IMG/VR virus record: IMGVR_UViG_3300018013_000028
Coordinates: 1 to 25,882 of that record
Direction: 5' to 3' (one strand)
DNA: 25,882 nt
DNA from: a virus
Shown: in pieces, positions 3,061-25,882 of the stretch
Position numbering within the stretch: the first letter of the stretch is position 1
Layout of the letters: every line of letters begins with the position of its first letter
Position numbers and translations under genes: made by a program
The notes under the pieces: generated by a model
Database searches by the model: none
What the model was told of the DNA's origin: nothing
The model's input: only the letters and a program-made list of their open reading frames with translations

Positions 3061-3612
3061 ATGCTAGTCTCAGGAAGCAACAAAGTCTACGAGCAACCGA
3101 AGGGTGGTTTGTATGAAGGCGTTCTCGCAGACGTGATCGACCTCGGGATGGTCCAAGGGATGTATGGAATCAAGCCTCGGACGCGTCTTATTTGGATTCT
3201 CAACGCGACGGATTCGGAAGGAAACTTCTTCCGTGTGCAGAAATCCTACAACGCAGTTCTTCACGAGAAGTCAAACTTGTATGCCGATGTTCGGGATATG
3301 CTTGGTGCAGCCCCGTCCATTCCGTACGAATTGGACCTTCTCATTGGCAAGAATTTTCAACTGGTGATCGTGCCTGCGACCAAGAAAGACGGCACACCGT
3401 GTGTCAATGTCAAGGCAATTCTGGCCCCCAAGTCTGGTCAGAACTTCCAGATTCCTGCCGACTTTGTTCGGAACAAGGATCGTTCGAAAACTCAACAGCC
3501 AAACACTCAAGCAGCCCGTCCAGCAACCGCCGCCCCCGCGCAGCCCGCGGCGTCGGTACAAGCACCAGCGGCACCGCCCGTGGAAACAGCTGATGAGGAT
3601 TTACCCTTTTGA
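3061..3612 (+). CDS. Single-stranded DNA-binding protein-like, acidic SSB tip
   Basis: 183 residues from ATG 3061. GGAG at 3049-3052 is eight bases from this ATG but only two from the ATG at 3055, so 3061 is preferred. The first ~125 residues look like an OB-fold core with beta strands (TRLIWILNATDSEGNFFRV). A Pro/Ala/Gln-rich disordered linker follows, and the protein ends in DEDLPF, closely resembling the DDDIPF tip by which bacterial SSB recruits partner enzymes. It lies between an exonuclease and the primase-helicase, which suits an SSB. The core is not a textbook SSB match, so the name rests on tail, linker, size and context. Confidence 0.68.
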   Translation: MLVSGSNKVYEQPKGGLYEGVLADVIDLGMVQGMYGIKPRTRLIWILNATDSEGNFFRVQKSYNAVLHEKSNLYADVRDMLGAAPSIPYELDLLIGKNFQLVIVPATKKDGTPCVNVKAILAPKSGQNFQIPADFVRNKDRSKTQQPNTQAARPATAAPAQPAASVQAPAAPPVETADEDLPF

Positions 3613-4034
3613 TTAAGACTTGTTTTAAGTGTAATGTTCCTAAGCCGATCGAAGATTTCTACGAGCACCGTGGTATGTCTGACGGTCGGCTTGGGAAGTG
3701 TATTGAGTGTTGCAAGAAAGAAGCAAACAAAAGACGCAGCGAAAAACTCAAAGAGATTCAGGAATATGACCGTAGACGATCGAGTTTACCTCACCGCATC
3801 GCGTTACGAGTGAAGTATTTCAAAGATCATCAATTCGGTAAAGAGAGGAGAGCACGACAGGCTGTAGCAAATGCCGTTAGAGATAGGCGGTTGGTGAAGA
3901 CGCCTTGTGTTGTTTGTGGGGCAGAAAAAGTTGAATCACATCACGAAGATTATGACAAACCGTTAGAGGTGATTTGGCTCTGCAAAAAGCACCACGTAGA
4001 GGCAGATAGAATTCGGAGAGAAAATGTCCTTTAA
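3609..4034 (+). CDS. HNH-like nuclease with N-terminal zinc finger
   Basis: 141 residues, starting at TTG 3609 overlapping the TGA of the SSB-like gene. The N-terminus has TCFKCNVPKP and then KCIECCKKEANKRR, a CX2C...CX2C finger found on many phage HNH proteins. The C-terminus has CVVCGAEKVESHHEDYDKPL followed by LCKKHH, a Cys-Cys/Cys-His zinc site with a His-His-x-Asp core typical of small HNH domains. It resembles the protein at 16618-16962. It may be a free-standing homing endonuclease, or a structural or regulatory relative that has lost catalysis; both are possible. Confidence 0.7.
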   Translation: MIKTCFKCNVPKPIEDFYEHRGMSDGRLGKCIECCKKEANKRRSEKLKEIQEYDRRRSSLPHRIALRVKYFKDHQFGKERRARQAVANAVRDRRLVKTPCVVCGAEKVESHHEDYDKPLEVIWLCKKHHVEADRIRRENVL

Positions 4035-16477: not shown

Positions 16478-16639
16478 GTGCGCTATCAATATGCTTGTGT
16501 TAAGTGTGGAAGTTCGGTTCATAAGCCGAAAGTCGAGATGGCCGAGAAGAAATTCGTCCATGGGCTTCACGGCTGGACCTGTCCAACCTGTGGCCCGACG
16601 AAGGTAAAGAGGATTTTATGCCCACCGTCGCAGAATTAG
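16478..16639 (+). CDS. Small zinc ribbon protein, 53 residues
   Basis: GTG 16478 follows the very strong site GGAGGGGAG at 16467-16475. The frame is open back to 16388, but that extension would translate the repeated hairpin motif, so I prefer the short form. ACVKCGSSVH and WTCPTCGPTK give CX2C...CX2C, a classic zinc ribbon of the kind used for protein or nucleic acid binding. The C-terminus is basic. It overlaps the start of the HNH-like gene by 22 bases. Confidence 0.62.
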   Translation: MRYQYACVKCGSSVHKPKVEMAEKKFVHGLHGWTCPTCGPTKVKRILCPPSQN

Positions 16640-16962
16640 TTGAAGCCTTCAACAATAAAGCGCCGAAGGCTTATTCGACGGCAAGCACGGCTTTTGTGGC
16701 CAGGAGTCCAGGAAATCTTAAGAACTACCACTCGGCTTTGAATTTAGAGCTTTCGATTGAAGCTCGTATTCTTTTTGCAACACTTAGACGTATATTAGCT
16801 ATGAGAAACGAGAACCCGTGGCCAAATGTTGCGCCTTGTGAAGTGTGTGGAAGTGTCGGTAAGATTTACTGGCATCATGATGATTATTCGAAACCTTTTG
16901 AAGTACGGCCATTTTGTTATAAGCACCACACAGCGTGGCACCGCCCCAAAGAATCTGAGTAG
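16618..16962 (+). CDS. HNH-like zinc protein, paralogue of 3609-4034
   Basis: 114 residues; AGAGG at about 16607-16611 precedes ATG 16618. The C-terminal half has CEVCGSVGKIYWHHDDYSKP then FCYKHHTAWHR, sharing with the protein at 3609 the layout CxVCG, HHxDY-KPxEV and CxKHH. The N-terminal half differs and lacks the CX2C finger. It may be an HNH endonuclease that nicks DNA for packaging or homing, or a noncatalytic zinc fold. The shared motif suggests duplication or separate acquisition of one family. Confidence 0.66.
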   Translation: MPTVAELVEAFNNKAPKAYSTASTAFVARSPGNLKNYHSALNLELSIEARILFATLRRILAMRNENPWPNVAPCEVCGSVGKIYWHHDDYSKPFEVRPFCYKHHTAWHRPKESE

Positions 16963-20593: not shown

Positions 20594-22729
20594 ATGGCAC
20601 CAGTTCTACCTCTCCCCGGTACGTCGAGCTCGGGGCTGCTGAACTTCAAGGAAGTTTTCAGTCCTGAGGAAGTAAGTGATGATGTTGCGCTAAAACTGGT
20701 TACTCTGGACTCGAAATTTACCCGCGCGTGGATTGAAAGCCGTTATTTCAATATTCGGTGGATAGAAATCGACCTGTTGTACCAATCGCCCCCGACGCTT
20801 CGCGTTTGGGAAGGCACCTCGATGCCCAAGGCGAACATCGCCAAATTTACGGTTGCGACGCACGTCAATGCTATCAATTCGAAACTTGTAGGCGGAATGT
20901 TCTATGAAGAACCTCCGTTCAAACTTGAATCTCGTTCTAGCATTTCAGCTAATATGGCGCGTGCTATTCAAGAACTGACGGCATATCAGTTGGATCAAAT
21001 GAATTTCAAGCAGGAAGTAAAGTATGGGCTTTTCTCCTGTTTGCTCAATGGCACCGGTATTTGGAAGTGGGGTTGGAAAGATCGTTACGAAACCGATTGG
21101 GATTTCCAACCGGTTCATGAATCTCTCACAACTACAGGCGCAGACGGAAACATTGAGGAATTACCGACGCCCGACCAAGACAAGTTTCGTATGGTCAGAA
21201 CGGAGCGGCTGGTATCGCATCCGTATTTCGAGAATTGTGACATCCGCACGGTCCTGGTGGACCCGGGTACGCGCGTTCCCGATATTCGTGAAGCCAAGTT
21301 CGTCATTCATGAATTTCCGGTCACGTATCGTGACATAATTAAGTGGAAGGACGAAGTTTACTACAACGAAAAGAACGAACCGATTTATCGCTACAATTTG
21401 CCAGACGAATCGACGATTAGATCTTGGTTCGAGACGCCCGCGGCAGCCGACCAAAGTCAGGCAATCGCCGGTCAGAATATGACTTCGGGCCAGAATAATA
21501 CACAGTTTGTGCAGCACGCGGCTCCTTTGTTTGCGAAGACGACCGACGATCCTCTCAACGAACCTTTGCTTATTCAAGAACGTTGGGACCGCGACAAGAT
21601 TATCACAGTCCTGGCCGGTCAGCGCGTCATTCGTAATGAGCCAAATATGTTTGGTTGCATACCGTTCTATTCTGTGAACTGGTGGATGATTCAAGATTGT
21701 TTCTGGGGCATCGGCCTCGGGACCGCGCTCGGCGGCGAGCAGCGGCTGCAGCAAGGGTTCATCAATGCGGTTGCCGATATCGGCACTCTGTCAGCCAATC
21801 AACCGATAGTCCGTTCGCGCGGCGCCAATATTAACACGCAGCAAGTCCGGGCTCGCCTGGGCGGCTTCATCGACGTTGACGGAGACGCAACGAAAGCGCT
21901 TCATCCGCTGGACCTTCCAAAGATTCAGCAAGAGTTATTCCAGGTGGTCGCAGCTTCCGAAGCGCGTACCGAATCGACTTCCGGCGCCAATGAAATGCTT
22001 ACCATGGGCGCGTCTAAACCTAGCGGTCGAGGCTCTTCGATGGGGCGTACAGCTACAGGCGCAGGCGGCATGATGCAAGCGGCCGTAGATCGTATCGGCG
22101 GATTGGTTGAAGACTTCAACCGCCAGGTGTTCCAGCCGTGGCTGTGGAAGATCTACGATTTGAATCGTATGTTCCTTCCGGCCTCGGTGTACAAAGAAAT
22201 TCTAAACGAACAACTCGGAAAAGATTACAAGGCCAGCTTCCGTGACTTCATGGGCAGTAAGAATGGCATCAAGCGGTTCAGTGTGCTCGCCGGCAGCCAC
22301 ATGGCGGCCCGTCAGCAGATGGCCCAGTCCATGCCGCTGATCATGCAGTACTTCACGAACCCGGCCCTCGCAGGTCAGATCGCAGACATCAATGGCGAGT
22401 ACATCGCCTTCTCCGAATTGCTCCACATGCTGACAGACGTCAGTGGTTATGGCAGTTCGCAGTATTATTCGATCTTTCGTCCGTTGACTCCGGAGATGAA
22501 GGCGCAACGTGCTGCTAACAATCCGGCAGCGGCCAAGATGGCAGCACAGAAAGCCAACAACGATCAAAAGTTCCAGGCAAAATCCCAGTTACAGGATCAG
22601 GCGTGGACACAGCGTGCGGCGGGGGATATTATCCGCCACTCTCTCGAAAAAGCCGGAGAACCAGAAGCAGTAACCGGAGAACCCGGGGGCCCAGGATTTG
22701 GTGGCAATGCCGAAGGCATGCCAGCGTAA
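20594..22729 (+). CDS. Portal protein
   Basis: 711 residues; GAGGAAA precedes ATG 20594. It is placed directly after the terminase, as is usual. The sequence has the portal style: a clip/stem region with DLLYQSPPTLRVWEG, TAYQLDQMNFKQEVKYGLFS and a long helical C-terminus. QDCFWGIGLGTALGGEQRLQ and TESTSGANEMLTMGASKPSG are typical portal wing and stem segments. The length is close to that of P22-like and N4-like portals (about 720-760 residues). The C-terminus is Gln/Ala/Gly-rich. It forms the ring through which DNA enters and leaves the head. Confidence 0.88.
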   Translation: MAPVLPLPGTSSSGLLNFKEVFSPEEVSDDVALKLVTLDSKFTRAWIESRYFNIRWIEIDLLYQSPPTLRVWEGTSMPKANIAKFTVATHVNAINSKLVGGMFYEEPPFKLESRSSISANMARAIQELTAYQLDQMNFKQEVKYGLFSCLLNGTGIWKWGWKDRYETDWDFQPVHESLTTTGADGNIEELPTPDQDKFRMVRTERLVSHPYFENCDIRTVLVDPGTRVPDIREAKFVIHEFPVTYRDIIKWKDEVYYNEKNEPIYRYNLPDESTIRSWFETPAAADQSQAIAGQNMTSGQNNTQFVQHAAPLFAKTTDDPLNEPLLIQERWDRDKIITVLAGQRVIRNEPNMFGCIPFYSVNWWMIQDCFWGIGLGTALGGEQRLQQGFINAVADIGTLSANQPIVRSRGANINTQQVRARLGGFIDVDGDATKALHPLDLPKIQQELFQVVAASEARTESTSGANEMLTMGASKPSGRGSSMGRTATGAGGMMQAAVDRIGGLVEDFNRQVFQPWLWKIYDLNRMFLPASVYKEILNEQLGKDYKASFRDFMGSKNGIKRFSVLAGSHMAARQQMAQSMPLIMQYFTNPALAGQIADINGEYIAFSELLHMLTDVSGYGSSQYYSIFRPLTPEMKAQRAANNPAAAKMAAQKANNDQKFQAKSQLQDQAWTQRAAGDIIRHSLEKAGEPEAVTGEPGGPGFGGNAEGMPA

Positions 22730-22757
22730 TAAGTAGCGAGCTTCCGGGAGGAATCTC

Positions 22758-23150
22758 ATGGAAATCGAAGAATTCGAAACAGGGCCGGTCGAAGGGTTAC
22801 AAGTTCCGATTGCGATGAGGGACCCGCGGTTCCTCAAGCTTTCGTCTACCGAAAAAGTCACGCTGGCAAACTGGTACGGGACTCCTGCCTATCAGGTCTG
22901 GATGAAGCTGTCGCAAGGCGAAATTGAAAAGCTTGAGACATCTCACTTTCAGAACTGGAAAAATAAGGAAGAGTTCGAGCGTACCGGTCTTCTTGCCGTA
23001 TCCGCGCGAATATTTTTCGAGCGCATTCAGAATGAGTGTACTCGGCAGATGGAAGAATTTTCTGGTGAAGTGGAGTTTATCAAGCAGAAGAAAGATCTTT
23101 TAGGCACTTCGCTGGAAGATCAAGTCAAAAAGGAATTCAAACCCGAATAA
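22758..23150 (+). CDS. Hypothetical protein in the head module, 130 residues
   Basis: GGGAGGAA precedes ATG 22758. The product is helical and acidic (LGTSLEDQVKKEFKPE at the end), with no cysteine cluster or membrane helix. It stands between the portal and the putative scaffold genes, so a minor head or assembly role is likely, but no family is recognised. Confidence 0.65.
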   Translation: MEIEEFETGPVEGLQVPIAMRDPRFLKLSSTEKVTLANWYGTPAYQVWMKLSQGEIEKLETSHFQNWKNKEEFERTGLLAVSARIFFERIQNECTRQMEEFSGEVEFIKQKKDLLGTSLEDQVKKEFKPE

Positions 23151-23415: not shown

Positions 23416-24735
23416 ATGAAAAGCGTTGAAGAACTAATCACGCTGGGTAAAGTCCCAGCAGATACAAAGCAGTCAGAAAATACCCCCGGTTATCCGAACG
23501 GCTGGCCCCTATTCACCGATTTGAACGAGCAAGTGAAATACGATTGGGCCAATCTGCCGTCGGATCGGGTTCGTAATTTGCGAAGTAATCTGGAGTACAA
23601 GACGGCTCTCGAAGCTTTCTTGCTTGCTCCCGCGGTTGTGGTTGACGCCTCTGGCGCCACACCACCCGTTGTTGAAGAGCAGATTGTCGCGGCCCCTCCG
23701 ACGCCCGTCGCGGCGGCAGAACCGGCGGTAGTAATCGCGGAGCCTCCGGCGCCAGTTGTACCGACTGAAGAAGAGGAAGGAACGAAGTCCGGACCTTACA
23801 CGAAGGTGAAGGGCGGATGGGAAGCGCGTGTTGAAGCGATTGATGGATCGGGCGAACAGGTTTGGTTCGCAAAGACGAAAGACGAATTGAGCCAGAAGAT
23901 TTTGGACGCGCAGGCGAATGCGACTGCCAAAATTCGTCAACAGCAAGAAGAGAACAACCAACTGCTTCTTGAACAGCCGGCCGATATTGCTTCACCTCGT
24001 AAAAAGTTGGAGCCTCGGGCTCTGACGGCTGATGAGCAGTTTGAAATTGCAGAAGATCTAAAATCCGGTGATCCTTCACGCGTCAATAAGGCGCTCGAGA
24101 GGAGAGACCGCATTCGATTCGGCGCCCCTGCCGAAGAAATTGTCACCCGTGTGGTGACCAGTGAAGCACAGCTTGACAGGGCGAGTTATCTCGCAACTGC
24201 CAAGTTGTTTATGAAACAGCATTCTGATGTCGAGTTCAGCAAAGAACTCGGCGACAAGATGGATGTAATCCTTGCTGAAAGTAATTGGGATTACACCGTT
24301 CGCAATTTGAACAAGGCCCTTGGTATGTTGAAAGAAAAGGGCGAAGTTCCAACTAGAGTTTCAACACCGGTTGAGCGAAGGGAGCTACCCGCTCCTGTAG
24401 TCGCTTTACCGTCGGCCGCGGATCCAGCAGCACCGGTAGCCGCAGCCGTAACACCGACGAGCGCAGAAGCGCCCGTCGTAACACCAGTATCGAAGGTCAC
24501 ACCACCCGCCGCCGCGCCAGTCGTGGAAGTGGGCAGGTTGCGACCAGGGTCTGCATCCACAGGGCTATCTCCGCGTCAGGCAAGTGTTAGGCCTGGTTCG
24601 AGGCCCGAACCATCCGTGGGGCTGACCGTCGAGGAATACAACAGAATGTCCGTTAGCGAGACGCGTCGCAGATACAGAACCGACTTGGGATTCAAGGCGG
24701 CTGTCGACAAGTTGATCGCGGACGGCAAGCTCTAA
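23416..24735 (+). CDS. Putative capsid scaffolding protein
   Basis: 439 residues from ATG 23416, with AGGAGA upstream; the ORF opens at 23392 but without a ribosome site. The sequence is long, acidic and mostly disordered. Pro/Ala/Val-rich segments (about 75-120 and 325-375) flank a helical Glu/Gln/Arg-rich middle (AKIRQQQEENNQLLLEQ). A short C-terminal folded patch (VEEYNRMSVSETRRRYRTDL) could be a capsid-binding helix-turn-helix, as in other scaffolds. Its place directly before the capsid gene supports scaffolding. I recognise no specific family. Confidence 0.62.
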   Translation: MKSVEELITLGKVPADTKQSENTPGYPNGWPLFTDLNEQVKYDWANLPSDRVRNLRSNLEYKTALEAFLLAPAVVVDASGATPPVVEEQIVAAPPTPVAAAEPAVVIAEPPAPVVPTEEEEGTKSGPYTKVKGGWEARVEAIDGSGEQVWFAKTKDELSQKILDAQANATAKIRQQQEENNQLLLEQPADIASPRKKLEPRALTADEQFEIAEDLKSGDPSRVNKALERRDRIRFGAPAEEIVTRVVTSEAQLDRASYLATAKLFMKQHSDVEFSKELGDKMDVILAESNWDYTVRNLNKALGMLKEKGEVPTRVSTPVERRELPAPVVALPSAADPAAPVAAAVTPTSAEAPVVTPVSKVTPPAAAPVVEVGRLRPGSASTGLSPRQASVRPGSRPEPSVGLTVEEYNRMSVSETRRRYRTDLGFKAAVDKLIADGKL

Positions 24736-24776
24736 CGTAATCCGCGCACACCCTGTATTACAAGGAAATATCCACC

Positions 24777-24940
24777 ATGTCTCTCGGATTTCCCGCGTCT
24801 AACGTGACCGGGAATTTGCCTCAATCTACCGTCTTGTTTTATGACAAGCAGTTCGTTGAGAACCTGAAGGCTGAGACGCCCTTCGTGCGTTGCGCGGAAC
24901 GGCGTGATCTGCCCCTTAACTCTGGTAACCAACTCGTGCT
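24777..24940 (+). CDS. Major capsid protein (N4-gp56-like), exon 1
   Basis: AAGGAAA precedes ATG 24777. Exon 1 gives 54 codons (MSLGFPASNVTGNLPQSTVL ... GNQLV) plus two bases of a split Leu codon. Patterns such as VLFYDKQFVENLKAETPFVR and LPLNSGNQLVL resemble N4-gp56-family capsid N-termini. Read without splicing, the frame hits TAA at 24942-24944, right after the splice site. Joining to exon 2 at 25555 gives LVLFEYNTFGAN in frame. The capsid protein builds the icosahedral shell and is essential, so its split by two introns is notable. A 5-bp inverted repeat (GTAAT/ATTAC) sits upstream. Confidence 0.82.
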
Positions 24941-25554
24941 TTAATCAAATAGGTTCGAGTATAAATAAATTTGACTAAATCGGTGAAACTCTGATATTAT
25001 GAGTATCAGACAATACCGAGGAAAGGATTCTCAGATGGAAAAGAATGCATGGCCGTATGTGGCCGGGATACTTGATGGAGAAGGTTCTCTATCTATTCAT
25101 AAGGCCGACGTCGCTGGCGGAAGCTACAGACTTCAGATTGTAATTTATGGAACGTCTGTTAAGCTGATGAAGTGGCTGTTGGGGAATTTTGGCGGAACGT
25201 TCTATTCTCGAGATAACAACCCTTCTGGTTGGACAAAGACATACAGTCGTCCGATTCACAAGTGGACTATCTCGGGGCGAGCAAACAAGGAAAGATTTTT
25301 ACTTGGAGTCATTCCTTATTTGATCATAAAACGGGAACAAGCCGAAGTCGCTCTGGAGTTTGTAAGACTTGGAAATTCACAAGTCCCAGAGATCCGAAAA
25401 CGATTAGAAGAGAAAATGAAGTTTCTCAATCAGGGAGAATCATCCCTAACGACTAATACGTCAAACACCTCTCCTGAGGTGAAGATAGAGTCTGAACATC
25501 ACGAGCAATCGTGAGAGCGAACCTGTGGTGACACAGGATTCCTAAACAAAATTG
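24941..25554 (+). mobile_element. Group I intron 1 in the capsid gene (complete)
   Basis: 614 bases. P1 pairs exon bases 24933-24940 with 24952-24959, with the splice-site U.G pair (24940/24952). P10: 24945-24950 (TCAAAT) pairs with the first six bases of exon 2 (ATTTGA). P3: TTTGAC (24970-24975) with GTCAAA (25460-25465). P4: CGGT (24981-24984) with ACCG (25015-25018). P5: TCTGATA (24990-24996) with TATCAGA (25004-25010). P6a: GATTCTC (25026-25032) with GAGAATC (25435-25441). P7: GACT (25451-25454) with AGTC (25489-25492). P8 hairpin: 25466-25481. P9 hairpins: CACGA-GCAA-TCGTG (25500-25513) and CCTGTG-GTGA-CACAGG (25522-25537). The last base is G. The ORF lies in the P6a loop, as in phage T4 td. 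Confidence 0.9.
25035..25514 (+). CDS. LAGLIDADG homing endonuclease in intron 1
   Basis: 159 residues from ATG 25035, with AGGAAAGG upstream. The in-frame ATG at 24999 lies inside the P5 stem and has no ribosome site. WPYVAGILDGEGSL (about residues 6-19) is a LAGLIDADG motif with the catalytic Asp/Glu positions kept. Only one copy is seen, so it probably works as a dimer that cuts an intronless capsid gene. IIKREQAEVALEF is a conserved helix of the family. The last ~27 residues are Ser/Thr/Glu-rich, and their codons also form P6a, P7, P3, P8 and P9 of the ribozyme. The stop TGA is in the P9 hairpin. Confidence 0.88.
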   Translation: MEKNAWPYVAGILDGEGSLSIHKADVAGGSYRLQIVIYGTSVKLMKWLLGNFGGTFYSRDNNPSGWTKTYSRPIHKWTISGRANKERFLLGVIPYLIIKREQAEVALEFVRLGNSQVPEIRKRLEEKMKFLNQGESSLTTNTSNTSPEVKIESEHHEQS

Positions 25555-25661
25555 ATTTGAATATAACACGTTCGGTGCCAATATCGTCCAAGCCACAGAA
25601 GGCACCCCTGGCCCCGGTCAGGCTGCCAGCTTGGTCACCAACACCTCCACCATCGGTGAGT
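25555..25661 (+). CDS. Major capsid protein, exon 2
   Basis: 107 bases. After the shared Leu codon it encodes FEYNTFGANIVQATEG, then a Gly/Ala/Thr-rich loop and TSTIGE, with one base (T) of the next codon before intron 2. The start at 25555 is fixed by the terminal G of intron 1, the P10 pairing and the reading frame; the end at 25661 by P1 of intron 2. The segment continues the N4-gp56 pattern in which a TEG turn leads to a strand ending in IGEY or QYG. The remaining exon(s) lie beyond the window. Confidence 0.8.
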
Positions 25662-25882
25662 TAATCGTCAGCTCACCTAAACAAAAACTTGACTATATCC
25701 GTCAAAGTATGCTACAGTTAAAGCTGGCAGCATAAGAGACGGAGGTAAGATTCCAAATGCAAATCAGTAAAACGAAGTGGTCTTACGTCGCCGCAATGGT
25801 TGACGCCGAAGGAGGAGTTTTCCTCAGTCGGACCACCTTGTACACTTCAAGTGGCAAACCGTATTTCGGTTATGACTTAAAA
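25662..25882 (+). mobile_element. Group I intron 2 in the capsid gene (5' part, cut by the window)
   Basis: P1 pairs exon GGTGAGT (25655-25661) with GCTCACC (25671-25677), seven unbroken pairs including the U.G splice-site pair (25661/25671). The P3 left strand is probably TTGAC (25689-25693). P4: CCGTC (25699-25703) with GACGG (25738-25742). P5: TATGCT (25708-25713) with AGCATA (25729-25734), topped by CAG/CTG. The layout matches intron 1, but the paired bases differ and change together. The frame read through from exon 2 reaches TAA at 25732-25734. The 3' core and splice site are outside the window. Confidence 0.82.
25757..25882 (+). CDS. LAGLIDADG homing endonuclease in intron 2 (partial)
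   Basis: ATG 25757, with GGAGGTAAG at 25741-25749. The visible 42 codons begin MQISKTKWSYVAAMVDAEGG, a LAGLIDADG motif aligned with that of the intron 1 enzyme (W-x-YVA-x2-x-D-x-EG). The rest continues beyond the window with no stop. The two enzymes differ outside the motif, so the introns are related but not recent copies of each other. Confidence 0.84.
   Translation, partial: MQISKTKWSYVAAMVDAEGGVFLSRTTLYTSSGKPYFGYDLK

Follow-up and report, generated by a model that had tools for sequence, protein, structure and literature searches.

Two Predicted Sister Group I Introns With Endonuclease Genes Interrupt the Major Capsid Gene of an Uncultivated Tailed Phage

The Interrupted Capsid Gene

The DNA analyzed here, IMG/VR record IMGVR_UViG_3300018013_000028, is a stretch of 25,882 nt (the window) of an uncultivated phage from an environmental sample. 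Near its end lies a major capsid gene in which we recognize a complete group I intron (intron 1) with a LAGLIDADG homing endonuclease gene in one of its loops, and the 5′ part of a second group I intron (intron 2), which is cut off by the end of the contig together with its own LAGLIDADG gene (Table 1). The original prediction had described intron 1, with coordinates that proved exact, and had overlooked both the LAGLIDADG gene within it and intron 2 from 25662 onward.

Table 1. Features of the interrupted capsid gene, in window coordinates.
Feature	Position	Strand	Remarks
Major capsid gene, exon 1	24777..24940	+	codons 1–54 and two bases of codon 55
P1	24933..24959	+	exon CUCGUGCUU (24933–24941) with guide AGGUUCGAG (24951–24959); U.G at the splice site
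Group I intron 1	24941..25554	+	614 nt, final G; assigned by RF00028, the independent model R1 and the same intron in IMG/VR contigs L002 and L003
P10, 5′ side UCAAAU	24945..24950	+	pairs with 3′ exon AUUUGA, 25555–25560
P3, 5′ strand UUUGAC	24970..24975	+	partner 25460–25465
P4 enclosing P5	24980..25019	+	P4 24980–24984/25015–25019; P5 24990–24996/25004–25010
Likely Shine-Dalgarno of the endonuclease gene	25018..25029	+	GAGGAAAGG; within P4′/P6; read from the sequence
P6a	25026..25441	+	25026–25032 with 25435–25441; endonuclease gene in the loop
LAGLIDADG homing endonuclease gene, intron 1	25035..25514	+	single-motif, 159 aa; assigned by PDB profile, AlphaFold and Foldseek
3′ core	25449..25537	+	P7 25449 and 25451–25454 with 25489–25493; P3′ 25460–25465; P8 25466–25481; P9 25499–25514; P9.1 25522–25537
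Capsid gene, exon 2	25555..25661	+	107 nt
Group I intron 2, 5′ part only	25662..25882	+	ends at contig end; P1 GGUGAGU 25655–25661 with GCUCACC 25671–25677
LAGLIDADG gene of intron 2, truncated (start)	25757..25882	+	

Unspliced, the capsid reading frame (24777–24944) terminates after 55 codons, as had been stated. The boundaries of intron 1 are exact (ACTCGTGCT/TTAATC at the 5′ side and AAAATTG/ATTTGAATA at the 3′ side), and removal of 24941–25554 restores NQLVLFEYNTFGAN in frame, so that the joined capsid protein reads ...NQLVLFEYNTFGANIVQATEG... across the site. The peptide NQLV-L-FEYNTFGAN, which was foreseen at the splice junction, is shared by seven intronless relatives in the alignment, and NQLVLFEYN is what homologues lacking the insert show at this place. 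Alignment of the exons to capsid proteins, which had been proposed as a check, thereby places the junction as in the intronless relatives, and profile searches agree on the family: TIGR04387 (NCBIfam capsid_maj_N4) matched the joined gene or spliced relative at 1.3e-9 (37.8 bits, below its 60-bit cut-off), and PHROG 1357, a major head protein family, was matched by the uninterrupted homologue L004 at 7.5e-14. Pfam gave no match to the individual capsid exons of the window, and no relative of the capsid protein was found in the genome contigs database. The upstream portal gene is SU10-like, and both the terminase and the portal gene beside the capsid gene are intact. Judged by these similarities, the interrupted gene is an N4-gp56-type major capsid gene of a tailed phage. 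An uninterrupted homologue that is 66.6% identical and annotated as major head protein occurs in Tunturiibacter phage Tunturi_3, an isolate from soil in Finland, which makes an acidobacterial host a reasonable guess for the window phage, and no more.

Ribozyme Core and Splice-Site Pairings of Intron 1

All pairings that had been claimed for the intron (P1, P10, P3, P4, P5, P6a, P7, P8, and P9) are present in the window, as are the U.G pair at the splice site and the terminal G. P1 forms 8 of 9 pairs with a single U.U mismatch and is more stable than 196 of 200 shuffled counterparts, and P10 is a perfect helix of 6 bp (6/6) that adjoins the terminal G (AAAATTG/ATTTG, in frame). In the core, P3, P8, P9, and P9.1 each pair at 6/6 positions, P5 and P6a at 7/7, and P4 comprises 5 bp. 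P7 consists of GACU/AGUC plus A25449-U25493 around a bulged C; this bulged register was read from the sequence, the automatic pairing having used a register without the bulge.

The Rfam group I intron model RF00028, the search suggested with the original prediction, matched 24914–25515 with 31.7 bits and an E-value of 5.7e-6 when applied to the last 1.2 kb. This is below the gathering score of 50, which is why a scan of the whole window at the gathering threshold listed nothing, and the interruption of the core by the endonuclease gene accounts for the low score; two sister introns, L014 with 62.5 bits and L063 with 59.5 bits, exceed the threshold. Independent evidence comes from R1, a covariance model built from an alignment (A3) of 12 sister introns of other contigs with the window intron left out, which found the 3′ half of intron 1 with 111.7 bits (E 3.4e-28) and the 5′ half with 43.6 bits (E 2.3e-10). 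The helices P3, P4, P5, P6, P7, P9, and P9.1 were annotated by hand on this alignment, and among the 12 sisters 98.4% of the cells are paired while both sides have changed at 20 of 36 pairs, including five of the six pairs of P3. When the partners are slid by 1–3 columns, pairing falls to 33–46%; this control is lenient in that the alignment itself was used to locate the helices, but that use does not account for the compensatory-change count. Taken together, 24941–25554 is, by its predicted structure, a group I intron with a P3-P8/P4-P6 core, and the same structure and the in-frame joining of the exons argue for splicing.

The Endonuclease Gene in the P6 Loop

The protein encoded in intron 1 has no Pfam match of its own, and the PHROGs label for its family is HNH (phrog_5046), so that its assignment to LAGLIDADG is drawn from the profile of its family together with its fold. 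PF00961 (LAGLIDADG_1) is matched by 25 of 61 sister proteins, and a profile of these 61 sisters (A6) searched against the PDB hit an I-MsoI fusion chain at 4.5e-25, native I-MsoI at 8e-12, and I-CreI at about 1e-10. The AlphaFold model of the window protein reaches a pLDDT of 88.4 (50 in a single-sequence run) and has a predicted alpha-beta-beta-alpha-beta-beta-alpha fold, for which Foldseek lists I-CvuI, I-CreI, and I-MsoI as nearest structures (E about 1e-8 to 1e-6; TM about 0.7 to I-CvuI and I-CreI). The HNH assignment was rejected, and by profile and modeled fold the enzyme is a single-motif LAGLIDADG endonuclease of the I-CreI/I-MsoI type. With its single motif it probably acts as a homodimer, by analogy with the I-CreI and I-MsoI families. 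The intron 1 insertion site, CGTGCTATTTGAATATAACACG, is symmetric at 8 of 11 positions and unmatched elsewhere in the local exon; a palindromic target as a general rule fits this site and fails at most sister sites.

Gene and ribozyme overlap. The 3′ end of the endonuclease gene doubles as the core elements P7-P3′-P8-P7′-P9, and the likely ribosome-binding site lies within P4′/P6, so that reading of the endonuclease and folding of the ribozyme would compete for the same RNA. Elsewhere in the window, two small free-standing ORFs carry HNH-like patterns and likely encode homing-type endonucleases, namely 3609–4034 (CVVCG..SHHEDYDKP..CKKHH) and 16618–16962 (CEVCG..HHDDYSKP..CYKHH).

Intron 2 and a Probable Homing Footprint

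Intron 2 lies 107 nt from intron 1 in the same gene and is 58.3% identical to it. R1 scored its part in the window with 48.3 bits, a value to be read with the fact that R1 includes an identical copy from L003 (IMGVR_UViG_3300018015_000095), the contig that carries the complete intron 2 of 633 nt. A third contig, L002 (3300038416_000144), has intron 1 and an empty site 2. Between L002 and L003 there are 2 differences in 4663 nt upstream of site 2, and 5 differences in the 83 nt compared on its 3′ side, all within the first 20 nt. These exon changes beside site 2 would be the co-conversion footprint, that is, what homing leaves behind. Alternatively, L002 may have lost intron 2 by recombination. 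Moreover, the intron 2 copies of L003 and L015 are 92.9% identical and their 5′ exons 76.8%, with 86.6% identity of the 3′ exon DNA between L002 and L015; that the introns are more alike than the upstream exons points to horizontal movement.

The window and L003 are nearly identical save for two blocks of dense differences at window 22726–22845 and 24586–24770, the latter just upstream of the capsid gene, and both look like recombination patches.

Sister Introns Across the Capsid Family

Inserts occur in relatives of the capsid gene near residues 3–5, 23, 32, 52, 54, 55, 91, 92, 188/189, 212, 271, 295, and 316. Those at 295 and 316 and most of those at 23 are introns of a different type, and the remainder belong to the lineage of the window, which is thus found at about ten to a dozen other sites of the N4-gp56 capsid gene, with up to three copies per gene. 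The extreme case is L017, in which two of three introns of the lineage are separated by an exon of 27 nt. A gap at residue 314 of L069 was considered as an intron and left uncounted, being too short with 40 nt. Among 36 whole records (1.21 Mb), all R1 matches map to the capsid gene, and RF00028 at an E-value of 0.01 found nothing outside this gene; since RF00028 misses the other intron type, further introns may still be present.

In a tree of the endonucleases the insertion site changes 31 times, compared with a mean of 39.6 for shuffled sites and none of 200 shuffles as low, and there are a clade of 11 members for site 91 and one of 6 members for site 188/190. It is likely, on the evidence of this tree, that the introns spread mainly by homing to one and the same site and rarely jump to another within the same gene.

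A terminal G is near-universal in group I introns. Several sisters are without an in-frame 3′ boundary after G (L065:780–1010, L016:3564–4190, L017:3468–4128, L088:3049–3737, L136 near 3341–3965, L070:3140–4054, and L071:3125–4039); they sit at capsid residues 31, 188, 189, and 212 and read ..AATA/C, with a good P1, a P10 of 3–8 bp immediately beside the boundary, and an unaltered G-C pair at the guanosine site of P7. Going by these boundaries, the last base of the sisters at the four residues seems to be A. A simple dependence of the terminal A on J7/9 was considered, but L123 contradicts it. In some sister introns (L070:3236–4033, L125:3939–4766, L178:2617–3552, and L197:4887–5741) two LAGLIDADG genes stand in tandem.

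Distribution Beyond the Capsid Family

A core motif comprising P7, P3′, P8, J8/7, and P7′ was searched in IMG/VR and found in 109 stretches, of which 80 were retrieved; 87 hits were evaluated. N4-gp56-type capsid exons adjoin 63 of these hits, on both sides for 36 and on one side only for 27, and 17 of the remaining 24 lie upstream of SU10_MCP (PF17236) or PHROG major head proteins (phrog_1357, 9953, 2522, and 752). In total, 80 of the 87 hits are located at genes for major capsid proteins from several families, a count that is partly redundant (64 distinct downstream frames) and obtained with probes designed on capsid introns. Among the remaining hits are unclear cases and a rare non-capsid host, L149, where the motif at about 5057 lies just upstream of a SNF2 helicase frame starting with GLGKT (Walker A), the point at which the helicase is interrupted.

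In 84,980 cellular genomes the core motif occurs in 17 stretches, and of the introns that the model confirmed, eight are situated within 23S rRNA genes of bacteria and archaea. As motif and model also find 23S rRNA introns, the probe is not bound to yield capsid genes. A second lineage of introns served as control, and 28 of its 85 hits are near N4-type capsid exons; this number is a lower bound and, as the control lineage itself lies partly in capsid genes and is often followed by endonuclease frames, it bounds the background rather than measuring it. It also means that capsid genes may attract introns more generally. We lean toward the view that a LAGLIDADG group I intron lineage has specialized on phage major capsid genes, including the N4-gp56 type, the SU10 type, and others, with cellular relatives in 23S rRNA, as these sequence matches suggest. 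If true, the capsid gene would be the phage counterpart of the cellular rRNA genes as a home of introns.

Two observations lie beside this survey. In L130:13443–13726, on the contig of L014, two introns of the other lineage are found by the gene for a portal or head-tail adaptor protein. L351, a contig of Streptomyces fumigatiscleroticus, gave a weaker core match (24.8 bits), and the frame after the core resembles cytochrome c oxidase subunit I and contains GLIDGDGS, a stretch similar to the LAGLIDADG motif.

Proposed Mechanism and Alternative Explanations

The reading that we favor, with a probability of about 0.93, is that the capsid gene contains two mobile group I introns from a single lineage, which are predicted to excise themselves, to home by means of their LAGLIDADG endonucleases, and to reside in phages mostly in capsid genes. 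Each intron would fold in the pre-mRNA into a P3-P8/P4-P6 ribozyme that locates its 5′ splice site through P1, where the upstream exon ends in the U.G pair, and its 3′ splice site through P10, in which the first bases of the downstream exon are paired, and its self-excision, suggested by the structure and the in-frame joining, would yield the full capsid protein. The endonuclease encoded in the P6 loop would cut intronless capsid sites of co-infecting phages, whereupon repair would copy the intron in, a step that the footprints support. For the most part the lineage would spread through site-specific homing of this kind, with an occasional move to a new site.

That intron 1 is dead or decaying, and the capsid gene therefore broken in a defective phage or remnant, might be suspected from the mismatch in P1, but the core is conserved under an independent model, the endonuclease frame is open, the exons are in frame next to intact terminase and portal genes, and an identical protein is present in two further contigs of other samples; we regard such decay as very improbable. 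Even less weight, close to none, can be given to an assembly chimera that placed the endonuclease region in the capsid gene. The window is a metagenome contig and ends inside a repeat-like sister intron, yet the same junctions recur in contigs from two other metagenomes, the same architecture is found in many independent relatives, and pairing of P1 and P10 with both exons would not result from misassembly.

The remaining alternatives accept the introns and concern what they are for and how far they are confined to capsid genes. They may be kept for an attack on the capsid genes of rivals or for regulation of capsid output and so would not be purely selfish. Competition by an intron endonuclease has a precedent in gp210 of phage PhiPA3 (PMC11620839), cleavage of capsid genes would block virion assembly, and the lineage is concentrated in one late, highly expressed gene; homing footprints are, however, equally expected of a selfish element, and nothing separates benefit from selfish spread, so that we consider a benefit of this kind unlikely, if worth keeping in mind. 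The enrichment in capsid genes could, in turn, be an artefact, produced by the probes and by a few phage clades having been sampled repeatedly. Motif and model were derived from capsid introns, the contigs are redundant to the extent given above, and the second lineage is also often located at capsid genes, but the same motif and model detect 23S rRNA introns in bacteria and archaea, the capsid hosts come from several unrelated sequence families, and the introns occupy at least some ten different sites, which leaves an artefact doubtful in our estimation.

Mobile introns concentrated in capsid genes, as in the favored reading, make the gene choice of such elements testable with respect to expression strength, target conservation, and damage to rival phages; strong late expression, conserved targets, and harm to competitors are accordingly the candidate answers to why capsid genes are used. 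Capsid protein is needed in large amounts late in infection, and introns in its gene would be tolerable only if splicing is very efficient. The finding is also a warning that in many uncultivated phages the capsid genes are entered in annotations as fragments and escape marker-gene surveys.

Comparison With Known Systems

I-CreI, I-CvuI, and I-MsoI, which belong to 23S rRNA introns of algal chloroplasts, are LAGLIDADG endonucleases with a single motif. The predicted window endonuclease shares their fold and motif at about 20% identity, and the targets differ, being rRNA genes there and a phage capsid gene here. Introns in capsid genes have been described in phages and in giant viruses. The major capsid gene of mycobacteriophage LittleE carries a group I-like intron with a LAGLIDADG-like frame, the efficient splicing of which was demonstrated by RT-PCR and protein sequencing, and a capsid intron of lactococcal phage Tuc2009 is cited in the same report (Pope et al., 2013; PMC3706429). 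The likeness of LittleE to the window lies in the gene and in the LAGLIDADG-like frame, whereas LittleE has one intron at one site, an insertion of 819 bp with the endonuclease on the opposite strand, and the window has two sister introns in the one gene with a sense-strand endonuclease in L6 and about ten further sites in relatives. The major capsid gene of Faustovirus E12 contains many introns, five of them group I, and capsid genes of mimiviruses are also rich in introns (PMC6247863). Faustovirus is a giant amoebal virus with mixed intron types and GIY-YIG endonucleases, in contrast to the single LAGLIDADG intron lineage of a bacteriophage considered here. Jug jumbo gut phages have many group I introns in essential genes, with splicing supported by metatranscriptomes (PMC12363816), but these introns are small, the HNH genes mostly free-standing, and the named targets terL, nrdD, and DNA polymerase rather than the capsid gene.

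In the open-licence papers searched, no intron lineage concentrated in phage capsid genes is described. The original remark that capsid insertions are less usual holds for the published record (LittleE, Tuc2009, Faustovirus, and mimivirus) and does not hold for the lineage of the window, most known copies of which are in capsid genes. An intron in a capsid gene is by itself already known, and the notable part is the concentration of this lineage in capsid genes.
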